This document shows, piece by piece, positions 29,961 to 42,973 of a stretch of DNA of 48,039 bases. A program made the translations under genes and the position numbers. The notes below the pieces were generated by a model. The model saw nothing but the letters and a program-made list of their open reading frames with translations. It did no database searches and was not told where the DNA came from. Each line of letters opens with the position of its first letter. Within the stretch, counting starts at the first letter, position 1. The stretch comes from Thiomargarita sp. (GTDB lineage Bacteria > Pseudomonadota > Gammaproteobacteria > Beggiatoales > Beggiatoaceae). The stretch spans positions 1 to 48,039 of the forward strand of contig DYRG01000020.1 in the NCBI GenBank assembly GCA_020718845.1, in the 5' to 3' direction.

Positions 29961-30001
29961 AATATTGCTCTCATAAAAATTATTTGAGAGCAATATTCTT
30001 C
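29961..30001 (+). terminator. Rho-independent terminator after DUF302
   Basis: Arms AATATTGCTCTCA and TGAGAGCAATATT are perfect over 13 bases with an 11-base loop, six bases after the stop codon. It separates the pgm unit from the CHASE2 operon. Confidence 0.8.
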
Positions 30002-30135: not shown

Positions 30136-31608
30136 ATGAAATATCTATACATATTGAAACCTCGTTGTGATTTTTCAAAACACGAATGGTTACGGAGCTT
30201 ATTGATTAATTTTATATTAGCAATAACAACCATGTTTGTTTTATCGCAATGGTTTGCTGAAAATATTTTGTTTCTGGCACTTCAAGATTCGGTTATGTTT
30301 TGGGGAAGTGATTCCGTTTCTGAAATTAATGGAAAACCAATAGATAGAATGGCGTTAATTCACATCGATGAAACAACACATCGGGAATGGGGATCGCCGC
30401 TTTTAACACCGCGAGATCATTTAAAGCAACTGATAGAACAAGCTGTTAAACAAGGGGCAAAAACAATTGCCGTTGATATTGATTTGGCATGGTCAGCAGA
30501 TGGTTGTATTCATGGTGGAGAGAAAATAGCGTGTCCAATCACAGATAAACAAAGCGAAGAAACGTTAGGACTTTATTTGAAAAACTTAAATGAAAGTAAA
30601 GAACCAAACACGCCGATTGTGATTTTAACCCGTTTGTATCGTTATCCCTTAAAAAATAATCAACTTGATTCAAATAATTTTTTAGAAAGAGCCCCCTCAT
30701 TTTTAGATCAATGGTTACAAGAAGAAAAGAACGTTTTTTGGGCATCGACTTTCTTTGTGCCGAGTGAGGATCGAGTATTAAGACATTGGCGTTTAGCACC
30801 TTTAATTTGTGAAAACAATCATTTGAATGTTGTTCCATCAGCCGCATTATTGGCGACATTAGCGCAATTATCAGATAATCCTCAATTTGTTTTACAAGAT
30901 ATGAAAAGAAAATGGAATACTTGGGCAGAACAATATTCGTGTGATTCATCACAAGGAAATGATTTGAAGCAACTTTGTCAAAAAATGGATTGCAATGATT
31001 TGAAAGTGACGTTGCCAGCGCATGAACATTGGCGAGAAAAGGCTTCAGAAATCTATTTACAAGCCGTTAAAATAAAAGAAAAAATTATTTATCGGTTTGC
31101 ACCAATGGATAAGATAAAAGATCAACGAATTAGTTTAATTGATACTTATTCAGTCAATAACTTTTTAGAACAGAAACCAGATTTAAAAGATCAATTGGTA
31201 TTTATTGGAGCAACGCACTCTTTAAGTGGAGATCGTCATCCGATTCCCATTCGTAAAAAAGAAGTGGACGGGGTGTATGTTTTAATGAATGCAACGGATA
31301 CTTTATTGCGCATTGGTCATTTAAAGGAACTTCCAAAGGAAGGGACTATTGCTTTAATTATTTTTACCGTAATGATTACAGCATTAGTTTTTACGTTTTA
31401 TGAAACCATGACGGCGTTTTGGTTAGCCACGATTTTAAGTAATGTAGTACTTTATTTGTTAGGAGCAATTTTATTACGTTCGGGATTTGAGATACAAGTT
31501 GCACTGCCACTTTTGACATTGAACTTTGTGCTTATGTTGTGGCATTATATTGAGAATTTTAAAGAGTTTCATCATCGAGTAAAAGGAAAGCAGCATCATG
31601 AACACTAA
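30136..31608 (+). CDS. CHASE2 sensor membrane protein without output domain
   Basis: A 490-residue protein. A membrane segment at about 20-40 is followed by a large periplasmic CHASE2 domain to about residue 395 (MALIHIDETTHREWG, GAKTIAVDIDL, LKDQLVFIGATHSLSGDRHPIPI, VDGVYVLMNATDTLL). Three membrane segments follow at about 403-473. In other proteins CHASE2 is coupled to a kinase, cyclase or diguanylate cyclase after these helices. Here only about 18 residues, ending in HHEH, remain after the last helix, so a separate partner must take the signal, if any. An AGGAAATG site precedes the ATG. It overlaps the next gene by 11 bases. Confidence 0.88.
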   Translation: MKYLYILKPRCDFSKHEWLRSLLINFILAITTMFVLSQWFAENILFLALQDSVMFWGSDSVSEINGKPIDRMALIHIDETTHREWGSPLLTPRDHLKQLIEQAVKQGAKTIAVDIDLAWSADGCIHGGEKIACPITDKQSEETLGLYLKNLNESKEPNTPIVILTRLYRYPLKNNQLDSNNFLERAPSFLDQWLQEEKNVFWASTFFVPSEDRVLRHWRLAPLICENNHLNVVPSAALLATLAQLSDNPQFVLQDMKRKWNTWAEQYSCDSSQGNDLKQLCQKMDCNDLKVTLPAHEHWREKASEIYLQAVKIKEKIIYRFAPMDKIKDQRISLIDTYSVNNFLEQKPDLKDQLVFIGATHSLSGDRHPIPIRKKEVDGVYVLMNATDTLLRIGHLKELPKEGTIALIIFTVMITALVFTFYETMTAFWLATILSNVVLYLLGAILLRSGFEIQVALPLLTLNFVLMLWHYIENFKEFHHRVKGKQHHEH

Positions 31609-32539
31609 AAAAAGTTTATTTTTAGCACTTTTATGGAGTATTTCTAATTTTTCAATTGCTTGTGATTTAACGATTGCAAAGATTCAATGGCATGAAAAAT
31701 TATTAAATAATATCAGTGTATTGCGAAATGGTAAAACACATTTCATTACTGAAAAAGATCGTGAATTATGTCGTGGCGATCAACTCACCGTTCCTCAACA
31801 AGCTGTGCCAGTCACGATTTGGTATTACAGTGAATCTCCTAATAAAGAAGAAATCATAGTACCAACCACTAATTATCAACTTCGAGAACTTAAAGAACCT
31901 TGTGGAATGTGGTGCAAAGTCGAAGATAAAATTGTTAGTTTGGTGGATAAATTAACTAAAGCAATTAAGCCTAAAACAGAAAGATTTACTTCTAGTTCTA
32001 GTAAAGGTCCTAAGCCTGCCATTATTTTAGAGGATGACATATTATTAACGAGCGTAGCAACACGAGGTAATGATGAGAATAAACCTGTGTTTATGCCGTT
32101 AAGTGCAGGAAAATCAAAAAATGCACCGTTTTTTTTATTTACTAATGAAGGAAAAGTTAATCTATTTTGGCATAATGGAAAGCCTCCTTTTCAAATCATT
32201 TTACAAGATAATAACGGTAATGAATTATCGCGGTCAGAAACAAAGCAACGTGAGTGGGCTTTTATTCCTAGCACGTTTGAAGTCGGAACGATTTATCATT
32301 TGATTATAAAAGATCAATTAAATCAATCATATAGTTCAAAAATTGAATTTACCGTTCCGCCGTTACCCATTGATTCTAAAGCAGATAAATTCACATTATT
32401 TGCGACCTTATTACAACAAGAAAAACTCAAAGGAAACTCCAAAAATTGGCGTTTAGAAATTTATCGCCAATTGCTTGCTTTACCAGACAGTCCAGAAAAA
32501 CAAAATTTTCTCGACCATTTAATTGCCGATGATTTTTAA
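31598..32539 (+). CDS. Exported protein of unknown family in the CHASE2/CHAT operon
   Basis: A 313-residue protein with a signal peptide ending near IAC22; the context is a poor lipobox, so it may be a free periplasmic protein. Residues about 25-85 (VLRNGKTHFITEKDRELCRGDQLTVPQQAVPVTIWYY) vaguely resemble the gene-expression-type FecR beta domain or the DUF928 proteins that accompany CHAT genes in cyanobacteria; this is a weak impression. A middle region (about 165-260) looks like an Ig-type beta fold. No catalytic motif is seen. It is translationally coupled to the CHASE2 gene and ends 13 bases before the TPR-CHAT start. Confidence 0.7.
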   Translation: MNTKKSLFLALLWSISNFSIACDLTIAKIQWHEKLLNNISVLRNGKTHFITEKDRELCRGDQLTVPQQAVPVTIWYYSESPNKEEIIVPTTNYQLRELKEPCGMWCKVEDKIVSLVDKLTKAIKPKTERFTSSSSKGPKPAIILEDDILLTSVATRGNDENKPVFMPLSAGKSKNAPFFLFTNEGKVNLFWHNGKPPFQIILQDNNGNELSRSETKQREWAFIPSTFEVGTIYHLIIKDQLNQSYSSKIEFTVPPLPIDSKADKFTLFATLLQQEKLKGNSKNWRLEIYRQLLALPDSPEKQNFLDHLIADDF

Positions 32540-32552
32540 AAGGAGAACAATC

Positions 32553-35500
32553 ATGAAGCATTTTTTATTGGTTATTTTGTGCTTGTTTTCATTTTCAGTA
32601 CAAGCACCTAGACCTCCTATCGAAGAAATTAAACACCAAAAACTCAAAACTGATAGCAACTTACTGTGGAAATATCTTCGACAAAATCGCTTCAAAGATG
32701 CTTTATCGTTAGCAGAACAAAACTATGAACTACTAAAAAGTTTATTAGGTGAAAAGCACCCTGACACTATTACGAGTCTCATAGCGTTGGCAGGGGCTTA
32801 CTACAAGTCAGAGCGTTTTATTGACTCTCTTCCACTTAAAGAAAAAATTTATTTATTGGATAAAGAAATATTAGGCGAAAAACACCCTGAAACACTTATT
32901 AGTCTCGATAATTTGGCACTAAATTATCTTAAATTAAACCGCTTATCTGAAGCACTAGTACTTAATGAACAGTCCTTCGCCTCATTTAAAGAAGTTTTAG
33001 GAGAAAAACACCCCGATACCCTACAAAGTCTTAGTAATTTAGCAGTAATTTATAACAAATTAAAACGACATGATAACGCATTGCTCTTTGATCAGAAAGC
33101 CTACATTTTGAGAAAAGAAATAATGGGTGAAAAGCACCCACATACATTAGAAAGTCTTAATAACTTAGCTGCTAGTTACTGTAGCATAAATAATTGCACG
33201 GAAGCACTGCCTCTTGCACAAAAAGCTTACACATTGCGTCAAGAAATATTAGGAGAAAGACATCCCAGAACTCTTTTTAGTCTTGATTTATTAATTTCAA
33301 TTTATGAAAAATTAGGCAATTTTAAAGAAACATTACCTCTTAATAAGCAAATATATAAATTAAAAAGTAAAACTCTCGGAGAAAAACATCCTGATGTACT
33401 TGCAAGCCTTCAGAAGGTGGCATCAAACTATATTGATTTAAACTTCCTTGAGGATGCGCTATTGCTTAATAAACAAATTTATGAAATGCGAAAAGAAATA
33501 TTTGGTGAAAATCATGTTGATACTCTTGATAGTTTAGATCAATTAGTAGTCAACTATCAAAAACTTGGCTATTTTAAATATGCAATACCTCTAAGTGAAA
33601 AAGCATATGCTATTAGAAAAGAGAATCAAAAAGAGCTTTCAATTGAACGATGTCTTTCTAGACCAAATGATGAGTGGTGTTCTTCAGACTCAAAGATTCT
33701 AATTGATAATTTATTAATTAAAAGCCTAAATAACCTAGCAACAAGTTATGAGTATTTACATTATTTTACAGATGCGCTAACTCTTCGTGAGAAGATTTAT
33801 GCTGAAACTAAATTACTGTATGGCGAGAAAAATTTGAACACTATTGTTACGCTAGACAATCTAGCAACAGCTTACACTAATTTACACCGTTCTATAGAAG
33901 CATTACCTCTCCGTAAACAGGCATATGCATTAGCAACGCAAGTATTAGGAGAAAGAAATTACCATACTCTCATAAGTCTAGATAATTTAGCAGCAGCTTA
34001 CTCTAAGTTAAACAATTTTGTAGAAGCACTTCCCCTACATGAAAAGTCATACACCTTATTCAAGGAAATATTGGGAGAACACCACCCAGACACCCTTATG
34101 AGTCTTCACAATTTATCGGCGATCTATAACTCGTTAGGTCAGGAAACAAAAGCACTTTCTCTTGGGAAGAAAGTCTATGCACTAAAAAAAGAAATTCTAG
34201 GGGAAAAACATTCTAGCACATTGAATAGCCTTACTCAGTTAGCTTACTACTACCAAAGTGTAAATCAAGTTGAACAAGCTATTATTCATTTTGAAAAAGC
34301 ACTGGAAAGTGTAAATAAACAACAAATCTACTTAAATCTAACAATACTGTATCTTTCTCAACGTAACATTAAAAAAGCCTTTTTTACAGTAGAAAGAGGA
34401 AAATCACGAAACTTATTAGCAGAAATGGCTCGAAAATTTGCAATTAATCATGCAGGATTGAGTGGTAAGGAAATCAACCAACATGAAAATTTAATTTCCA
34501 CGATTGGTAAATTAGATGAAATGATTTCAAAAACTGAAGAATTAGAAAAACGTTTAAGTTTGCGTCCTGAACACACCCGTTTAAATCAAGAATTAGCAGA
34601 ATCATCACATCGACAATTAGCAGATAAATATGTTGAATATCGTCAACTAAATGCAGTAGAAACTGCTAGTTTGGAAGAACGCTTAAATCTTCGCGCTGAA
34701 TATACTCGTTTAAATCAAGAGTTAGCAGAATTACATCAACAATTAAGTGATAAATACCCAAAATACCGCCAATTGAATGCAGTAGAAATTGTCGATGCTG
34801 AAAAAGGTAAAGATTTATTGCCTGAAAATGGATTATTTGTTAATTATTTAATTGGAGCAAAAAATCATTTATTAGCCTTTATTCTTGACAAAGAAGGTGG
34901 ATTAGAAAGCTATGATTTAGGAGAAATCCCCAATTTGGAACAAACTATCGAAGCTTATCGTAAAACTTTAGGTGTTGGTGGTATTCTAAACCTAAGAGGC
35001 AATGGTTTGTATGTTTATGAATTGGAAGATGGGAGTTTCACAACGGCAACAGATGCTCCAGAAAATTCTCGTAAGTTAGGAGAAGAAGATGAAGGATTAA
35101 TTGGAGCATATTTGAGCAATAAATTATTAATTCCTTTAAAAGATTCTTTAAGTGAAAAAGAACGGTGGATTATTTCTCCCGATGGGGCGTTGGCATTATT
35201 ACCTTTTGAAACCTTGCCTTTTAATCAACAAATGGTGATTGAACAACACAGCGTGAATTATGTGCAATCATTATCAGTGTTAAATTTGCTTAAACAACGT
35301 CAAGCCGCGTATCAAAGTCAAACCGACCGCCAATCCTTATTAGCAATGGGCGCGGCACGTTATGAAAAACCTAATCAAATCTCAAATAAAATAGAAATAA
35401 ATGCTTTTGAAATCAGTGCACGATTAAAACAAGGTGCATCTGATCAACAGTCTTTAAATCAACTCGTTGCCATGCAACAAAAAGAATGGAAAAACTTACC

Positions 35501-36062
35501 CGCCTCTGAAAAAGAATTACAAAATTTAGAAACACTCTTTGAGAAAGAAAAACCGCTCATTCTACGCAAAGAAAAAGCCAGCGAAAGTCATTTATTAGAA
35601 CTCAATAAACAACGGGTTTTAACAAACTATCGTTATTTATTATTTTCTACGCACGGCTATTTTAGCCCGATTCATCCCGCCTTATCGGGCATCGTTTTAG
35701 ATCAACTCCACACGCCCGCCCCCACCGATGGCTACATCAACGCCGCCGAATGGGTTGGTTATGATTTACGAAGCGATTTGATGGTGTTGTCGGCGTGCGA
35801 AACAGGTGTGGGACAAACCAGCGGCGACGGCGTTTTAGGTTTGCCTTATGCTTTATATGTCGCTGGAAATACGAATACGTTATTGACTTTATGGACAATT
35901 TTAGATGAAAGTACCGCCGAATTTATGCGTCGTTTCTTTAGTCGTTTGCAACAAGGCGAAAATCATGTCGATGCTTTAACTTCAGTGAAACGCGAGTTTC
36001 TCAAAGAAAACAAATACCGCAATCCTTTACATTGGGCAGCTTTTATTCTTTACGGCATTTAA
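32553..36062 (+). CDS. Exported TPR-CHAT caspase-like protein
   Basis: A 1169-residue protein starting at the ATG at 32553 after AGGAGA. A signal peptide (LLVILCLFSFSVQA) directs it out of the cytoplasm. From about residue 40 to 620 there are at least eleven kinesin-light-chain-like 42-residue TPR units marked by GE[KRN]HPxTLxSLxNLA. One unit is interrupted by an insert with C367 and C376. A coiled coil with an internal duplication (about 640-745) leads to a C-terminal CHAT domain (about 770-1169), with the caspase-like dyad H1034 in FSTHGYFSP and C1082 in LSACETGVG. CHAT proteins are clan CD peptidases, some of them active proteases. Target unknown. It is the last gene of the CHASE2 operon. 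Confidence 0.92.
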   Translation: MKHFLLVILCLFSFSVQAPRPPIEEIKHQKLKTDSNLLWKYLRQNRFKDALSLAEQNYELLKSLLGEKHPDTITSLIALAGAYYKSERFIDSLPLKEKIYLLDKEILGEKHPETLISLDNLALNYLKLNRLSEALVLNEQSFASFKEVLGEKHPDTLQSLSNLAVIYNKLKRHDNALLFDQKAYILRKEIMGEKHPHTLESLNNLAASYCSINNCTEALPLAQKAYTLRQEILGERHPRTLFSLDLLISIYEKLGNFKETLPLNKQIYKLKSKTLGEKHPDVLASLQKVASNYIDLNFLEDALLLNKQIYEMRKEIFGENHVDTLDSLDQLVVNYQKLGYFKYAIPLSEKAYAIRKENQKELSIERCLSRPNDEWCSSDSKILIDNLLIKSLNNLATSYEYLHYFTDALTLREKIYAETKLLYGEKNLNTIVTLDNLATAYTNLHRSIEALPLRKQAYALATQVLGERNYHTLISLDNLAAAYSKLNNFVEALPLHEKSYTLFKEILGEHHPDTLMSLHNLSAIYNSLGQETKALSLGKKVYALKKEILGEKHSSTLNSLTQLAYYYQSVNQVEQAIIHFEKALESVNKQQIYLNLTILYLSQRNIKKAFFTVERGKSRNLLAEMARKFAINHAGLSGKEINQHENLISTIGKLDEMISKTEELEKRLSLRPEHTRLNQELAESSHRQLADKYVEYRQLNAVETASLEERLNLRAEYTRLNQELAELHQQLSDKYPKYRQLNAVEIVDAEKGKDLLPENGLFVNYLIGAKNHLLAFILDKEGGLESYDLGEIPNLEQTIEAYRKTLGVGGILNLRGNGLYVYELEDGSFTTATDAPENSRKLGEEDEGLIGAYLSNKLLIPLKDSLSEKERWIISPDGALALLPFETLPFNQQMVIEQHSVNYVQSLSVLNLLKQRQAAYQSQTDRQSLLAMGAARYEKPNQISNKIEINAFEISARLKQGASDQQSLNQLVAMQQKEWKNLPASEKELQNLETLFEKEKPLILRKEKASESHLLELNKQRVLTNYRYLLFSTHGYFSPIHPALSGIVLDQLHTPAPTDGYINAAEWVGYDLRSDLMVLSACETGVGQTSGDGVLGLPYALYVAGNTNTLLTLWTILDESTAEFMRRFFSRLQQGENHVDALTSVKREFLKENKYRNPLHWAAFILYGI
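34542..34787 (+). repeat. Tandem duplication inside the TPR-CHAT gene
   Basis: Two units, 34542-34670 (43 codons) and 34671-34787 (39 codons or more), encode nearly the same helical sequence. The first starts LEKRLSLRPEHTRLNQELAE and the second LEERLNLRAEYTRLNQELAE; both end in YRQLNAVE. It lengthens the coiled coil between the TPR array and the CHAT domain. The copies differ at many silent positions, so the duplication is not very recent. Confidence 0.85.
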
Positions 36063-36087: not shown

Positions 36088-37611
36088 ATGTTACGATCAT
36101 TAAGTGTAGTAGGAAGTTTGACGTTGTTATCACGAATTTTGGGATTTGTGAGGGATATTGTAATTGCAACTTTATTTGGAGCAACCGCTGGGGCTGATGC
36201 GTTTCTGGTGGCGTTTAAAATTCCTAATTTTATGCGAAGATTATTTGCGGAAGGTGCGTTTTCTCAAGCATTTGTTCCCGTATTAAGTGAATATAAGAAC
36301 AACTCTCCCGAAAAAGTCCAAAGTTTAATCGATCACGTTGCGGGAACATTAGGGTTTATTTTAATCATTTTAACGGTGTTAGGAATTGTTTTCGCCCCGT
36401 ATTTGATTATGTTATTTGCACCTGGGTTTGTCGATGAGCCACATAAATATCAACTTGCCGTCGATATGTTGCGCATTACATTTCCTTATTTATTGTTTGT
36501 TTCATTGACGGCATTTGCGGCGGGCATTTTAAATTCATACGATCATTTCTCATCGCCCGCTTTTAGTCCAGTGATTTTAAATTTGTGCATGATCGCGGCT
36601 GCATTAGGATTTAGTCAATATTTTCAAGAACCTATTTTAGCTTTAGCATGGAGTGTGTTAATTTCTGGAATTTTACAATTTGTATTTCAATTGCCGTTTT
36701 TATCTAAATTGCATTTAATGCCCGTTCCTCGATTAAAAAAAGAACAAGATGAAGGCGTTAAAAAGATTTTAAATTTAATGCTTCCGGTTTTATTTTCGGT
36801 TTCTGTGGGACAAATCAGTCTTTTAATTAGCACCTTAATGGCATCATTTCTAGTCACTGGAAGTATCGCATGGTTATATTATGCGGATCGGTTATTAGAA
36901 TTCCCGATTGGGGTATTTGGTGTGGCGTTAGCAACGGTGGTTTTACCAAGGCTTTCTGGGTTAGCCGCTAGAAATGCCCAAGAGGATTATAACAAAACCT
37001 TAGATTGGAGTTTAAAATGGGTTTTTTTAGTGGGCGTTCCAAGCACTTTAGGGTTAATTTTTCTTTCAAAACCGATATTTGTGACGTTGTTTTATCGCGG
37101 GCAATTTGGATTAAATGACGTTGAAATGAGTGCGCAAGCATTAATGGCGTATAGCATTGGTTTGTTAGGCTTTGTTTTAATTAAGATTTTAGCATCGGGT
37201 TTCTTTGCACGACAAGATACTAAAACTCCCACCAAAGTCGCTTTTATTTCAATTGTGAGCAACATTGTTTTAAATTTTGTTTTAATTTGGTCTTTAAAAC
37301 ACGTTGGATTAGCCTTAGCAACTGCATTGGCGGCGATTTTAAATGCGGGTTTATTGTATTTCTATTTACGCAAACAAAACGCATTTCAACCATTAAAAGG
37401 TTGGGGATTGTTTTTGGGAAGAATTACGATTGCAAGTGTGGTAATGATTGCTTTGTTAATATGGTTTGTACCCGTATTAGAAAATTGGTTGCAATGGGGA
37501 AGTGGAATGCGATTTCTACAATTAGGAATTTGGGTTTGTTCTGCAATGATCGTTTATTTTTTTATGTTATGGATCAGTGGGTTGCGTTTTAAGACGTTAT
37601 TGCGACCTTAG
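36088..37611 (+). CDS. murJ: Lipid II flippase MurJ
   Basis: A 507-residue inner-membrane protein with about 14 helices that flips lipid II to the periplasm for peptidoglycan synthesis. The N-terminal LRSLSVVGSLTLLSRILGFVRD and FKIPNFMRRLFAEGAFSQAFVPV are diagnostic, with the essential arginines in RDI and RRLFAEG. It begins 25 bases after the TPR-CHAT stop on the same strand and may be read from the same transcript, though its function is housekeeping. Confidence 0.97.
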   Translation: MLRSLSVVGSLTLLSRILGFVRDIVIATLFGATAGADAFLVAFKIPNFMRRLFAEGAFSQAFVPVLSEYKNNSPEKVQSLIDHVAGTLGFILIILTVLGIVFAPYLIMLFAPGFVDEPHKYQLAVDMLRITFPYLLFVSLTAFAAGILNSYDHFSSPAFSPVILNLCMIAAALGFSQYFQEPILALAWSVLISGILQFVFQLPFLSKLHLMPVPRLKKEQDEGVKKILNLMLPVLFSVSVGQISLLISTLMASFLVTGSIAWLYYADRLLEFPIGVFGVALATVVLPRLSGLAARNAQEDYNKTLDWSLKWVFLVGVPSTLGLIFLSKPIFVTLFYRGQFGLNDVEMSAQALMAYSIGLLGFVLIKILASGFFARQDTKTPTKVAFISIVSNIVLNFVLIWSLKHVGLALATALAAILNAGLLYFYLRKQNAFQPLKGWGLFLGRITIASVVMIALLIWFVPVLENWLQWGSGMRFLQLGIWVCSAMIVYFFMLWISGLRFKTLLRP

Positions 37612-37964: not shown

Positions 37965-39278
37965 TTATTGAGGATTTTTCGCGGCGGATTCGGGTAAAGG
38001 CTCTATTTTTAAAGTGGGTAATAAACGACCTGTCGCGGCTAATAAACGATAAATTCCAAAAGACTCTGTGTAACGTGCTGAAATTAAAGCAGATTTTGCA
38101 TTATATAATTCGCTTTCAGAATCAAGCACATCCAATAAACTGCGTTGTCCGAGTTTGAATTGTTGTTTGTAAGAATCCGTGACGGCTTCTGCTGAAAAAA
38201 CCTGTTGTTGTAGATAATTCAAACGCTTACCGACGGTTTGCAACGCATTCCACGCCAAGCGCGTTTCTTCTTCCAACGCCCGCTGCGCCCGCGTTAAATT
38301 TTCTTTTGCCAAATTCAAACGCTCGGCGGTTTCTTTCAAACGGGCTTGGTGCGCCCCGCCTTTATAAAAATTATAACGCAATTTGAGCATCGCTCGCGCA
38401 TCGTCGTTCTTGTATTCAATGCCGTCTAAGTTCTTGTTTTTAGAGGCTTCTAATTCCAAATCCAAACGCGGCATCATCGGTGAACGGGCTTGCGCGTGAG
38501 CGGCTTGAGCGGCTTCTAACTCCGCTTGAAATGCCTTTAAAGTCGGATGTTGCGGAATTAAAGCTATCGCCATCTCACTGTTTTTAGGGAGATTTTCACG
38601 AATTGCTTGATGTTCGGGAGAAATCAAATTCTTTGGCAATTCGCCGACCACTTTCAAATAATTTGCTTCCGCATCTAAAACAAAACCTGAAGAATATTCT
38701 AAGTTCGACGATGCTAATGCTTCACGACTTTCGGATTGTTGAACGTCTGCTTTGCGACCCGCCCCTTGTGTAAATAACTCGTTGATTTGTTTGCGAGTTT
38801 TTTGATGAATGACCAAATTATCTTTTGCTAATTCTGCTAATTCATGACGACGAAAATATTCTAAAAATACTTCAATCGCTTTTAAACCGATGCTTTCACT
38901 GCTTTCTTGAACACGCCACGCCGCTGCGTCGAGTTTTGCGGCACGTTTTAAAGATTCGTTTCGAGTGTCAAAACCATCAAAAAGCATTTGCGTTAAAGTC
39001 AAACTCGCTTCTTGGCGATCCAAATCAATCGCGCCGCCTTTGCGAGAAAAAGTCGTGTAATTGTCGCTGCGCTGTTTGCCATACCCCGCTTGCAAATCAA
39101 TCGACGGCAAATAACCCGCTTGGGCTTGGCGTAATTCGTGATCCGCCGCCAAGCGCGTGCTGACGCTAATTCGCACATCGGGATTGGTTTCTAAGGTTTT
39201 TTTCACCACATCGACCAACGTATCTGCGCTCGCGTGTGTGAAGCATAACATCATGAAAAAACTTAATTTTTTTTTCAT
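37965..39278 (-). CDS. TolC-family outer-membrane channel protein
   Basis: A 437-residue outer-membrane efflux protein. The start is the ATG at 39278; the TTG of the longer frame overlaps the previous stop and is part of the GAGG ribosome site. A signal peptide (to about HASA) is followed by two repeated outer-membrane-efflux domains of helical hairpins (ETNPDVRISVSTRLAADHELRQAQAGYLPSIDLQ style in the first; LKAFQAELEAAQAAHAQARSPMMPRLDLELEASKN style in the second, broken up here only in part). It trims to the usual C-terminal LLAATGRL. It starts 11 bases after the FecR-RTX gene, so it is probably the exit channel for that protein's type I secretion. Confidence 0.9.
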   Translation of the reverse strand: MKKKLSFFMMLCFTHASADTLVDVVKKTLETNPDVRISVSTRLAADHELRQAQAGYLPSIDLQAGYGKQRSDNYTTFSRKGGAIDLDRQEASLTLTQMLFDGFDTRNESLKRAAKLDAAAWRVQESSESIGLKAIEVFLEYFRRHELAELAKDNLVIHQKTRKQINELFTQGAGRKADVQQSESREALASSNLEYSSGFVLDAEANYLKVVGELPKNLISPEHQAIRENLPKNSEMAIALIPQHPTLKAFQAELEAAQAAHAQARSPMMPRLDLELEASKNKNLDGIEYKNDDARAMLKLRYNFYKGGAHQARLKETAERLNLAKENLTRAQRALEEETRLAWNALQTVGKRLNYLQQQVFSAEAVTDSYKQQFKLGQRSLLDVLDSESELYNAKSALISARYTESFGIYRLLAATGRLLPTLKIEPLPESAAKNPQ

Positions 39279-39289
39279 TATTCCGATCC

Positions 39290-42200
39290 TCAAAAAATAA
39301 ATTGCGTGCTAATGTTTTGATTAATCAGCAAATGCGCCGAACCCATTGAATAATCTGTATAATTTATTCCACCAAGCGCGATTAAACCCGCATTTGTCCA
39401 GCCTTGTCCCGCCGAAGTCACCGAACTTCCCGCGCCGCCGTCGACGATTAATTGTCCAGCATCTGAAAGACTTAGCACATCATTTGCGCTTAATGTCAGC
39501 ACATTTCCCGCGCCCAAATCGATGCGATCAATCCCAGACAATTGCATATTTTGACCCGCCGGCGCACTTTGATTCGCAATAAGATCAAAATACGCGCCAG
39601 TCGTGTTTAATTTCAAAACGTCTTCGCCTGCGCCACCGCTGATATTCACTATCCCATTGTTTGGATTGAATAAAAAGGTATCGTTGCCCAATCCACCGAT
39701 TAATTGGTCGAACCCGTCGCCGCCATCAATCGTGTCGTCGCCCGCGCCGCCGTCGATGAGGTCATTCCCCGCGCCGCCCGTGAGGGTATCATTTCCACCA
39801 AGCCCGTATATCACATTGTTTTGCAAAGGATTTCCTGTTAAAACGTCATCCCCTTCCGTTGCGGTTTGAATGTTTTTGGGATTTAACGTGACGTGCGCCG
39901 AACCTGTCGCGCCGCTCAAAGTTTGTACTTGATAATCAAAGCCTAACGCGGATTGTGCCATGTTTCCATCAACATACACCGCGACATCGTTTCCGTAAAG
40001 TTGGGCTTGCACGCCGTCGCTTAAATTGGCTAACCCAATGATTTTTAAGCCAATTCCTGAATCATTCGCAAATAATTGATCCGCTGGGATTAAAAACGGC
40101 GTGTTCACTGATGCGTCGACAATGTCATCCGCTGCAATTTGCGGTAAAATTAAATTAATTGAACGACTTACACTATCCAATTCCTCACCGCCACTTTCTG
40201 CCGCCGCTTGATCATCGTACAAACTAAATGAAATGGTTTTTGTGCCAGCGGTTGGCATCGTTGAACCCATAAAAGCATTGTAAGATACTGATTGTATTAG
40301 ATTTTCTAAAGCACTTTGTCCCACTGCGCCATCAAAACTTAAAATAATCAAATTCGGGGTTGCAGTTAAAATAGTCGCCGCACCGTTATTTGAAATATTA
40401 AGTTGCTCACCTGTTGACAAACCACTTGCTTCAATTCTCAAATACCGAGTTTCTCCCGCTGGTGCATACGCCATATTGCTAATAAATGCTTGATTATCAA
40501 CATTTATTGCGGGAAAATTAACCGTATATTGTAATAATGTGCTTGCTTGTGGTAATTCAATAAAATGCCCCGTTAATTGCACATCAATCGCCACTTTTCC
40601 AATCTCTTGATTACCCGCATCATCTTCAAGAACATATTCAAATTCCGCTAATCCATTGAAATCTTTATCGGGCGTAAATATGATTTGATCATTCACCAAT
40701 TCAACCGTCCCATTTAAAGGATTTTGCACTGCTGAAATATCTGCAATTACTTCTGTTGGAATAATATCATTTTCTAATAAATCTATAGATGAAATTTGTA
40801 ATACCGTGTTAGTTAGTGTTATTAACGCATCAGGAATCGCTTGTAATATTAGTTTTTCCTCGATGGGAGGAATCGGTTTTTCCTCGATGGGTTGTTGCGC
40901 TTCAATTTGTACCTTTGCTTCAATTGGAACATCAGCACCACTTCCATCAGAAACATAATAAGTAAAAGATAAACTTTGTCCGCCCAAATCATTGGTAAAA
41001 CTTGCTTTCAAACTTGCATTATCAACGATAGACCAATTTCCTTGTGAAGGGAAATCAACACGAGTAATGCTTAATTTGTCACCATCGATATCGTGCATAA
41101 CAGCTAATAAAACATCTTGTTTAATTTCAAGTTGTTGCCCTGCTTTAATATTAAAAGAAAGCGATTTTTTTGTAATGGGCAAATCATTAACTGCTTGGAT
41201 TTCAATTTCTATAAATGCGGGTGGACTTAATAATTGCTGACCATCGTTTGTTGTTTGAGCAACTTGATAAGCAAAATAAACTTTACCGTTGTAATTCATT
41301 TCTGGGAAAAAGAGGATTTCGCTATTATTTTGATTTAATTCAAGTTTTCCATGCGTTAAATCACCTAAATTCGGATCAAACTCCATTGACGAGGCAATTC
41401 TTATAACGGAAAGTTTAGTTAAATCAAGGGGTTCTTTTATATCTGGATTATAAGCTAATTTCAATAGTTCTTCTGTTTTAAGACTAAAAGGTGTGTCTTC
41501 CAAAATAAAGGCTTTGTAATTAGCTGCAATAAGTGAATCTTCAACTGGTAAAATATTCACTTCAATATTGACATCACCTAATTCAGAAGAGTGCAAATAA
41601 AACGTATCTATTCCAAAGAAATCTTTATGCGGAGTGTAGACCAAAGTATCCTCTTTGAGTTCTACAGTTCCATTCTCAGGTTGTTTTAAATTACTAATCG
41701 TTCCTTTTGTTGGTAAAATTAAAGGATGATCCTCCAAAACAGTGAATTTTCCTTCAACAGGCGGCGACGGTGGAGGTTCTTTGCTACCTGTTTGAGGATT
41801 GTCGTTAGTATTTTTTTCTTGTTCTAAAGGTCTTGTATTATTTCCATTCAGAGGTGGCGACGGGATAAATGATCCTTCTTGATTTTCGTTATGTCTTTGA
41901 AGATCGGGTTGTCCATTCAGCGGTGGTAAATCTGTTGTACTTTTTCCGCGAGTCGATGAGGGAACATCTCGTTCAGTAACAAAGCTTTGCTGGTGTGGAG
42001 GAGGCGGCAGATCGTGGACATCGCCTTTTCCTTCAGAGCCTGTTTTGGGTTGAGCCGCTTGGGGATTGGGTGGATTTGTTGAATTGTTGAGGATGCCTTG
42101 CGGGTTGTGCGATGAGTCGGGCGATTGCTGATTGAGGGGCGAGAGAAAATTACGGATTTGTTGTGCGGATTCGTTATTGACCACTTCAGAACGCGAATTT

Positions 42201-42973
42201 TCGACAGGCGTGTTGGGAATTTCGATCTTGGTGTGAGGCTTATAAATAGTAATATTTTCAAGATGATAGTTAGATCGCACTTCGATCACGCCCGTTGAAT
42301 GCAAAACGGTGGTGTTGCCGTCTTCGTCGACTTGCCCGTCGATTTCACTGCCGCGAATCCCGATAGTTGCGGACGGGGTTTTTAAAATGGTGTGCGTTCC
42401 TTCGTTTTTGTCGGCGATTGCCCCGCTGATAAATCTAAAAATTCCCATAAAAATGTTCGATTCGAATTTTCCGCCGACGGTTGCGGGATCGAAATCGTAA
42501 GTTTCTAAACTCGCTTTGGATTGCGGACCGAGTTGAAAAACCGTTCCATCTTTTAAAGTAATTTTTAAATAAGTCTTTGATCCAGTTGAGATTGTATCGT
42601 GCAAATACACGGGATCGTTCACATTTAAAGTGCGTTCTTTGCCGTCGTTCACCGCTTTCGCAGGACCTTCGACCACCAAACTCACTTTTCCGATCATTTT
42701 CGGAACATCTGCTGCTGAAATAACATTATTATCAGCCACTTGGACGTTCATTGGCGGATAAATAATGTCGATTTGCGACAAATCGATGGTTTCACCCGAC
42801 GTGGTTTTTAAAATCGGCGGCGGATCACTTTTAAAAAAATCCGCGATTCGATGCGTTTCTCCAAAAGCCTTAATAATCAAATCATTACCAATGCGAGCAT
42901 ATTGCGCATTAGTTGAAGTTGCGAAATCAGGCACTTTCACCGTATTTTTTTCAGAAATTTGAGGCGCGTACAT
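39290..42973 (-). CDS. FecR-, cadherin-like- and RTX-domain giant surface protein
   Basis: A 1227-residue protein without a classical signal peptide. Residues about 85-240 form a FecR domain (LNVNDPVYLHDTISTGSKTY, DGTVFQLGPQSKASLE, TPSATIGIRGSEIDG). A Pro/Ser/Asn-rich linker runs to about 410. Several cadherin-like/VCBS-type modules follow to about 800 (NGTVELKEDTLVYTPHKDFFG and NGTVELVNDQIIFTPDKDFNG are matching units). A further beta-rich region leads to RTX calcium repeats at about 1040-1115 (GLGGNDTLTGGAGNDLIDGG). The C-terminus FIF-type end fits a type I secretion signal. It is followed by a TolC-family gene; no ABC exporter or membrane-fusion gene is nearby. AAGGAG precedes the ATG. Confidence 0.9.
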   Translation of the reverse strand: MYAPQISEKNTVKVPDFATSTNAQYARIGNDLIIKAFGETHRIADFFKSDPPPILKTTSGETIDLSQIDIIYPPMNVQVADNNVISAADVPKMIGKVSLVVEGPAKAVNDGKERTLNVNDPVYLHDTISTGSKTYLKITLKDGTVFQLGPQSKASLETYDFDPATVGGKFESNIFMGIFRFISGAIADKNEGTHTILKTPSATIGIRGSEIDGQVDEDGNTTVLHSTGVIEVRSNYHLENITIYKPHTKIEIPNTPVENSRSEVVNNESAQQIRNFLSPLNQQSPDSSHNPQGILNNSTNPPNPQAAQPKTGSEGKGDVHDLPPPPHQQSFVTERDVPSSTRGKSTTDLPPLNGQPDLQRHNENQEGSFIPSPPLNGNNTRPLEQEKNTNDNPQTGSKEPPPSPPVEGKFTVLEDHPLILPTKGTISNLKQPENGTVELKEDTLVYTPHKDFFGIDTFYLHSSELGDVNIEVNILPVEDSLIAANYKAFILEDTPFSLKTEELLKLAYNPDIKEPLDLTKLSVIRIASSMEFDPNLGDLTHGKLELNQNNSEILFFPEMNYNGKVYFAYQVAQTTNDGQQLLSPPAFIEIEIQAVNDLPITKKSLSFNIKAGQQLEIKQDVLLAVMHDIDGDKLSITRVDFPSQGNWSIVDNASLKASFTNDLGGQSLSFTYYVSDGSGADVPIEAKVQIEAQQPIEEKPIPPIEEKLILQAIPDALITLTNTVLQISSIDLLENDIIPTEVIADISAVQNPLNGTVELVNDQIIFTPDKDFNGLAEFEYVLEDDAGNQEIGKVAIDVQLTGHFIELPQASTLLQYTVNFPAINVDNQAFISNMAYAPAGETRYLRIEASGLSTGEQLNISNNGAATILTATPNLIILSFDGAVGQSALENLIQSVSYNAFMGSTMPTAGTKTISFSLYDDQAAAESGGEELDSVSRSINLILPQIAADDIVDASVNTPFLIPADQLFANDSGIGLKIIGLANLSDGVQAQLYGNDVAVYVDGNMAQSALGFDYQVQTLSGATGSAHVTLNPKNIQTATEGDDVLTGNPLQNNVIYGLGGNDTLTGGAGNDLIDGGAGDDTIDGGDGFDQLIGGLGNDTFLFNPNNGIVNISGGAGEDVLKLNTTGAYFDLIANQSAPAGQNMQLSGIDRIDLGAGNVLTLSANDVLSLSDAGQLIVDGGAGSSVTSAGQGWTNAGLIALGGINYTDYSMGSAHLLINQNISTQFIF

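Follow-up and report, generated by a model that had tools for sequence, protein, structure and literature searches.

What might a CHASE2 receptor accomplish when it carries no recognisable cytoplasmic output domain and is encoded together with an exported protein and a caspase-like peptidase? This question is raised by three genes in the 48,039-nucleotide stretch of Thiomargarita sp. DNA that we analysed (the window), which the initial annotation had described as an operon coupled by overlap or short spacing and as a possible module for envelope sensing and proteolysis. The relevant features are as follows.

29961 to 29997, no strand assigned: inverted repeat of 18 nt, lying between the operon and the gene before it, a possible transcription boundary

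30136 to 31608, plus strand: effector-less CHASE2 receptor subunit, 490 aa (PF05226 match, transmembrane scan, clade of effector-less CHASE2s)

31598 to 32539, plus strand: exported partner, 313 aa, MID family (family alignment, signal-peptide-like N-terminus, co-diversification with CHASE2)

31667 to 31885, plus strand: FecR-like N-terminal domain of the partner, about residues 24-96 (hhalign to a FecR alignment)

32027 to 32359, plus strand: Ig-like beta-sandwich domain of the partner, about residues 144-254 (AlphaFold2 model, Foldseek, VIA)

32387 to 32527, plus strand: C-terminal three-helix region of the partner, about residues 264-310 (AlphaFold2 model, moderate confidence)

32553 to 36062, plus strand: exported TPR-CHAT protein, 1169 aa (PF12770, TPR_12, signal-peptide-like N-terminus)

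35652 to 35654, plus strand: CAC codon of catalytic His1034 of the CHAT domain, in FSTHGYF (invariant in aligned homologues)

35796 to 35798, plus strand: TGC codon of catalytic Cys1082 of the CHAT domain, in VLSACETG (invariant in aligned homologues)

The three open reading frames are confirmed at these coordinates, all on one strand, and the proposed coupling holds. The CHASE2 gene overlaps the partner gene by 11 bp, and a gap of 13 bp, within which AAAAGGAGAA precedes the ATG, separates the partner gene from that for the TPR-CHAT protein. We read the latter from the ATG at 32553, the longer TTG start at 32523 being unnecessary. The trio is present as a single copy in its genome. Because murJ starts 25 bp downstream of the TPR-CHAT gene with no terminator in between, it may be co-transcribed with the trio.

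The CHASE2 protein matches PF05226 at 67.3 bits (cut-off 26.3) over residues 35-416. A hydropathy scan places transmembrane segments at residues 19-37 near the N-terminus and at 403-421, 429-447 and 450-468 near the C-terminus, which yields a layout of one membrane span, a periplasmic CHASE2 domain, three further spans and a tail of about 22 residues. Pfam returned CHASE2 only, with no cytoplasmic kinase, cyclase or GGDEF/EAL domain in the window protein, and the CHASE2 proteins of family loci included in our tail scan end in tails of 0-49 aa. The partner-associated CHASE2s form a single clade (support 0.978) with a private cysteine pair, Cys225 and Cys269, present in 23 and 24 of 26, respectively, versus none of eight effector-bearing CHASE2s. 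The two other CHASE2 proteins of the same genome bear a cyclase or a kinase. These comparisons place the window protein in a receptor lineage that keeps its membrane topology without a cytoplasmic output domain.

The 313-residue protein had been called unknown and exported. Export remains the best reading, with a signal-peptide-like N-terminus apparent by hydropathy in the window protein and, by a crude script, in 47 of 51 family members, but the protein is not without recognisable parts. Although searches of Pfam and NCBIfam with it gave no match, its alignment with FecR by hhalign is significant (probability 94%, P 1.1e-7, score 55), and reversed or shuffled versions of its N-terminal domain score about 14 or less versus 39 for the real domain. 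The window protein does not reach the Pfam gathering score for FecR (PF04773), and this family is absent among those listed for 40 members; we therefore call the domain FecR-like rather than a member of PF04773. The second domain, with a tyrosine-corner motif F-x-x-G-x-x-Y, appears to be an Ig-like sandwich: in an AlphaFold2 model built from seven input sequences (pLDDT 64.5), Foldseek finds the DUF3244 Ig-like fold as its best match (E 4e-4), and VIA gives Z values of 5.4-6.6 against Ig-like domains. The motif NWRLEI(Y/W)RQL marks the helical C-terminal region. Within the partner's subfamily, C58, C102 and C106 are conserved in 9-10 members, which fits an oxidising compartment.

Members of the partner family occur in 25 of 43 Beggiatoaceae genomes and are very rare in other lineages. 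A single-sequence search of genome contigs with the 313-aa protein found no match, and a closer family profile recovered six named Beggiatoaceae loci. Outside this group, the profile found one further gammaproteobacterial CHASE2-partner pair (L120); the other matches were weak, and those scanned with Pfam included four FecR proteins and one Ig-like protein that adjoins a CHASE2-cyclase.

Does the trio merely reflect chance? We counted neighbours for 55 family genes at 54 loci, with the window excluded. A CHASE2 gene lies within 3 kb of 28 of these genes (0.5 expected; Poisson P 5e-39), a CHAT gene lies within 8 kb of 28 (4.0 expected; Poisson P 4e-15), and one or the other is near 39. Thus the genes are adjacent far more often than chance would allow, as the initial annotation required of its module. 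Where each flank extends for at least 6 kb, which holds for 18 family genes, CHASE2 is a neighbour of 11, CHAT of 12 and both of nine. For half of the family genes no CHAT gene is visible, partly because contigs end. That half of the loci lack one neighbour is all that speaks for chance adjacency, which the counts refute and the distance correlations described below contradict; we give it a negligible probability.

The three genes are not equally bound to one another. Pairwise distances of CHASE2 and partner correlate with r 0.91 over 26 loci and with r 0.85 among 22 within-genome pairs, while those of partner and CHAT give r 0.65 over 21 loci and approximately zero over eight within-genome pairs. 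Judged by these distances, paired evolution of CHASE2 with its partner is clear across many relatives. The conserved unit by this measure is the CHASE2/partner pair, and CHAT is a looser third member whose link is nonetheless real. The interpretation offered in the initial annotation is partly supported.

This asymmetry would fit an alternative in which CHASE2 and partner are a self-sufficient two-gene receptor that passes its output to another protein, such as a separate kinase, and the adjacent TPR-CHAT gene serves a separate function in the envelope. Several loci carry CHASE2 and partner without CHAT, some family members adjoin a soluble response-regulator/histidine-kinase protein without CHASE2, and published CHASE2 partners serve kinases and cyclases (PMC5192318, PMC4439547). 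However, this arrangement does not account for 28 nearby CHAT genes where 4 are expected, nor for their operon-like spacing, which is 13 bp in the window and 71-255 bp at loci L025, L026, L032, L034 and L098. Moreover, it leaves the family CHASE2s, which carry no output domain themselves, in need of one. We regard this alternative as rather unlikely, though deserving of serious attention.

The third protein matches PF12770 at 176.7 bits (cut-off 24) across profile positions 7-288 of 289, and it carries 9-11 TPRs (TPR_12, 265 bits). The dyad noted previously, H1034 and C1082, is invariant across eight aligned homologues. It is also found in 21 of 22 CHAT proteins adjoining the partner family; the remaining one lacks aligned residues at those positions. 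The protein is thus predicted to be a peptidase with an intact His/Cys dyad. Hydropathy shows a signal-peptide-like stretch at its N-terminus, and the same crude script finds such N-termini in 21 of 29 CHAT proteins. Proline is disfavoured at position +1 by signal peptidase I. Export processing of the window protein is less certain because a proline comes directly after its A-x-A site (VQA|PRP), where the sequence in close relatives is AQA|A or VQA|T. From the sequence, cleavage at SFS|VQA seems likelier, or else the protein remains anchored. A PDZ-TPR-CHAT relative at one family locus fits a periplasmic protease.

Two other roles for such a protease deserve mention. CHAT effectors are known from conflict systems of multicellular bacteria (PMC10907252), and the genomes considered here hold up to 42 CHAT genes, which could suggest a defence or programmed-death system with CHAT as the killer protease. 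PADLOC models match none of the three proteins, however, no STAND, MoxR or effector-associated domain was seen next to the operon, and the proteins appear exported, so that we consider this very unlikely. Alternatively, the module might mature or shed a secreted surface protein of the two-partner-secretion (TPS) or RTX type, with CHAT doing the processing. TPS exoprotein genes occur near four of 54 family loci and beside other CHAT genes, and the window contains, about 2 kb downstream, genes for a FecR/cadherin/RTX protein and for a TolC-type protein. Yet the RTX/TolC pair is on the opposite strand and is not seen beside the partner family at other loci, and the window's own genome gave no TPS exoprotein match. 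This processing role is improbable in our estimation.

We favour, at slightly better than even confidence, the interpretation that the operon encodes an envelope receptor-protease module, wherein an inner-membrane CHASE2/partner receptor has a periplasmic TPR-CHAT protease as its output. Its composition and pairing are evident from the comparisons above; the complex, its activation and its substrate we infer. Given the paired evolution of CHASE2 and partner in many relatives, it is plausible that a CHASE2 sensor signals to a protease outside the cytoplasm. CHASE2 and partner would form a receptor facing the periplasm, and their complex would be altered by ligand binding or by some envelope change. 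The protease might then dock on this complex through its TPR superhelix, with the Ig domain and C-terminal helices of the partner as candidate surfaces, and docking would free or localise the CHAT protease to cleave a periplasmic, outer-membrane or surface protein. In this way the signal would arrive at an enzyme beyond the cytoplasm with no need to pass through the membrane.

How novel is this arrangement? The initial annotation knew of no system of this make-up, and we found no description in the literature of an effector-less CHASE2 with an exported TPR-CHAT protein. In contrast, exported FecR or Ig partners of CHASE2 are already known (PMC5192318, PMC4439547). In build and neighbourhood, the nearest described counterpart of the partner is Magnetospirillum MtxA (MGR_0208, PDB 4Z29), encoded beside a CHASE2-adenylate cyclase. 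In that system (PMC4439547), MtxA is likewise exported, similar in size and composed of an N-terminal domain (structure unsolved), an Ig-like domain and a helical C-terminal end; its C-terminal domain is TPR-like, whereas that of the partner is helical in the model, its CHASE2 neighbour bears a cyclase, and the available text mentions no CHAT gene. A partner profile search of PDB chains gave no chain named MtxA at E <=10, so likeness in sequence was not found, and 4Z29 is absent among the matches listed by fold searches, which are uninformative at this model quality (pLDDT 64.5). In the Burkholderia BiofilmReg operon (response regulator, LysM-FecR protein, CHASE2 histidine kinase), an exported FecR-domain protein is also encoded with a CHASE2 receptor, but the output is a kinase, the partner has LysM with no Ig domain described, and there is no protease (PMC5192318).

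DUF928 (PF06051) proteins of Beggiatoaceae are also exported and adjoin CHASE2 or TPR-CHAT genes, occurring with CHASE2-cyclase or CHASE2-GGDEF-EAL genes or divergent from TPR-CHAT genes; unlike partner-linked CHASE2s, the CHASE2s linked to them bear output domains. A profile comparison between the partner and DUF928 gave no significant similarity (hhalign P 0.069), and no DUF928 Pfam match was obtained for the window protein or among families listed for 40 members. The weak alignment is collinear across the final Ig strands and a helix bearing W-(E/D)-A.

Two precedents concern the protease. Craspase, of type III-E CRISPR systems, includes the TPR-CHAT protein Csx29, whose protease activity is controlled by its partner complex (available text of PMC9729208). 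Csx29 shares with the window protein the order TPR then CHAT and the His/Cys dyad, but it acts with the RNA-guided nuclease gRAMP/Cas7-11, whereas the window protein has a signal-peptide-like N-terminus; phmmer gave no sequence match to PDB chains, and no Cas7-11/gRAMP gene is among the annotated window genes. In Trichodesmium, CHASE2 is likewise tied to a caspase-fold protease, but as a CHASE2-metacaspase fusion, a single protein of family C14 rather than CHAT, with no exported partner mentioned (PMC2853523).

The factors recognised by CHASE2 are not known (PMC5192318), and deletion of mtxA gave no phenotype (PMC4439547). An output-less CHASE2 lineage with a co-evolved exported partner and a frequent caspase-like protease makes CHASE2 ectodomain contacts biochemically testable. 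More tentatively, and with somewhat less than even confidence, we suggest that a class of CHASE2 receptors has abandoned cytoplasmic output, controls a periplasmic caspase-like protease via a dedicated FecR-Ig partner, and has multiplied in giant and filamentous sulfur bacteria into several copies that co-evolve. If so, a number of the abundant CHAT genes in Beggiatoaceae would gain a regulated role in the envelope, rather than an assumed role in death.

The three open reading frames of the operon proposed in the initial annotation were all reproduced at the coordinates first assigned to them, and murJ begins 25 bp past the last:

30136-31608 (+), CHASE2 gene
31598-32539 (+), gene for the 313-residue exported partner protein (MID, also the name of its family)
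32553-36062 (+), TPR-CHAT gene
36088-37611 (+), murJ

The proposed coupling likewise holds, with an 11-bp overlap between the CHASE2 and MID genes and a 13-bp gap before the TPR-CHAT gene that contains a ribosome-binding-like sequence, AAAAGGAGAA. An 18-nt inverted repeat separates the operon from an upstream gene that appears DUF302-like when read from sequence, without a database match. No terminator was seen in the 25-bp gap preceding murJ, which is possibly co-transcribed with the TPR-CHAT gene. Further downstream, the gene for a TolC-type outer-membrane protein (37965-39293, -) adjoins one whose 1227-aa product combines FecR, Big_9/cadherin, and RTX repeats (39290-42973, -); these are probably an exporter and its type I secreted surface protein.

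A MID-family profile found 75 matches in 25 of 43 genomes of Beggiatoaceae, whose members among the named loci include Thiomargarita, Parabeggiatoa, and Marithrix. Matches occurred in 2 of 369 sampled Gammaproteobacteria, one being the window's own 2.98-Mb genome, and a search of 398 Pseudomonadota returned, besides the window, only weak partial matches. The adjacency predicted for this grouping recurs elsewhere: at 54 loci outside the window, carrying 55 MID genes or pieces, CHASE2 lies within 3 kb of 28 and CHAT within 8 kb of 28, and 39 have one or the other nearby. For the 18 MID genes flanked by 6 kb or more in each direction, CHASE2 is nearby in 11, CHAT in 12, and both in nine. Gene counts and genome sizes predict only 0.5 (CHASE2) and 4.0 (CHAT) chance occurrences (Poisson P 5e-39 and 4e-15). 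These P values overstate independence, as the loci were drawn from the stronger matches and some are related by descent, yet a very large excess remains. At two Pfam-scanned loci (L067, L034), where no CHASE2 gene is visible, MID adjoins a response-regulator/histidine-kinase gene of ~480 aa, and three more (L068, L069, L071) look the same as judged by gene size. In another proteobacterium (L142, 2912-6229, +), a WD40-caspase (Peptidase_C14) with a signal-peptide-like start adjoins a weak MID-family match, possibly a parallel with a different caspase family.

MID, originally described as unknown, matches nothing in Pfam, NCBIfam, or PADLOC, but it is FecR-like by profile-profile comparison and Ig-like by model. 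Alignment of 40 members reveals a signal peptide, an N-terminal motif finishing L-x-x-G-D-x-I-x-V, middle motifs L-x-W-x-G-G-K-x-P-Y and L-x-x-G-x-x-Y, and a C-terminal W-x-x-E-A-Y-Q-Q. Whole MID matches FecR domains with 94% probability (P 1.1e-7, score 55); its N-domain alone scores 39, compared with 14 when reversed and at most 13.7 in 40 column shuffles. An AlphaFold2 model (seven sequences, pLDDT 64.5) predicts an N-domain of beta structure, then an Ig-like sandwich, and three helices at the C-terminus. Foldseek ranks a DUF3244 Ig-like fold first for it (E 4e-4). By VIA, many Ig-like domains match at Z 5 to 6.6, which for the modeled structure shows a common Ig-like fold and nothing more specific. 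Cysteines at window MID positions 58, 102, and 106 are retained in 9 to 10 of 10 sequences of its subfamily.

CHASE2 and MID distance matrices correlate strongly (r 0.91, 26 loci; permutation P 0.0005, the floor of 2000 permutations), and the correlation over within-genome pairs (r 0.85, n=22) goes beyond what species history alone can account for. Correlations are lower for MID with CHAT (r 0.65, 21 loci; r ~0 within genomes, where eight pairs are too few to decide) and for CHASE2 with CHAT (r 0.57, 16 loci). Therefore, the three-gene unit first envisaged stands as a tight CHASE2/MID pair with CHAT as a frequent but looser third member.

CHASE2 is the sole Pfam domain of the window's receptor (67.3 bits), and a hydropathy scan indicates 1+3 transmembrane segments followed by a ~22-residue tail; tails of the other scanned MID-locus CHASE2 proteins span 0-49 residues. 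The genome's two remaining CHASE2 proteins carry a cyclase or a Ser/Thr kinase. Among the scanned MID loci, L101 encodes two CHASE2 proteins, one of which has its CHASE2 domain in duplicate. In a tree with a small, hand-chosen set of eight effector-bearing CHASE2 proteins, 26 single-domain MID-locus proteins, including the window's, form one clade (support 0.978); Cys225 is present in 23 and Cys269 in 24 of these 26, but neither occurs in the eight. A CHASE2 protein with an exported FecR-Ig partner but no cytoplasmic output would signal either through an unlinked membrane partner or to a target outside the cytoplasm. We regard the first route as rather unlikely. We lean slightly toward output outside the cytoplasm, for which the natural candidate is the exported TPR-CHAT protease encoded alongside.

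Precedents exist for such partners. A FecR-LysM protein accompanies a CHASE2-kinase in Burkholderia, with a reduced version in Pseudomonas (PMC5192318), and MtxA accompanies a CHASE2-cyclase in magnetotactic bacteria (PMC4439547); CHASE2 genes can thus have an exported partner. The domain order described there for MtxA (N-domain, Ig-like, TPR-like helices) resembles that of MID, although sequence searches found no relation between them. Beggiatoaceae DUF928 proteins (L104-L121) lie beside CHASE2-cyclase or CHASE2-GGDEF-EAL genes, or divergent from TPR-CHAT genes, and are a parallel CHASE2-partner arrangement; their homology to MID was tested and is not significant. Among the open-access journal papers searched, only a cyanobacterial metacaspase survey was relevant to CHASE2 and CHAT together, and none linked TPR-CHAT with the periplasm.

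PF12770 matches the window's CHAT domain end to end. Its dyad, His1034/Cys1082, is intact as originally read, being invariant across eight aligned CHAT proteins and present in 21 of 22 MID-locus CHAT proteins (the 22nd has no aligned residues there). The signal peptide assigned to the protease fares less evenly: a crude script, several of whose misses start at doubtful start codons, found signal-peptide-like N-termini in 21/29 CHAT, 47/51 MID, and 15/18 DUF928 proteins, but processing of the window's protein is uncertain because a proline follows VQA. One CHAT relative (L035) has an extra PDZ domain ahead of its TPRs. Near another CHASE2/MID pair (L081, 12678-16073, +), a CHAT protein's N-terminal ALVIGNSNY resembles, by eye, a caspase p20 start. 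Some Beggiatoaceae genomes (G017, G405, G406, G033, G016) encode 30 to 42 CHAT domains.

The TPR region of the protease may dock onto the CHASE2/MID receptor. In Craspase, the protease activity of TPR-CHAT is under the control of a partner complex that switches it (PMC9729208), so partner-controlled activation is a reasonable expectation here. The trio is a real, conserved gene module, in which the CHASE2-plus-exported-partner arrangement known elsewhere is joined to an exported caspase-like protease.
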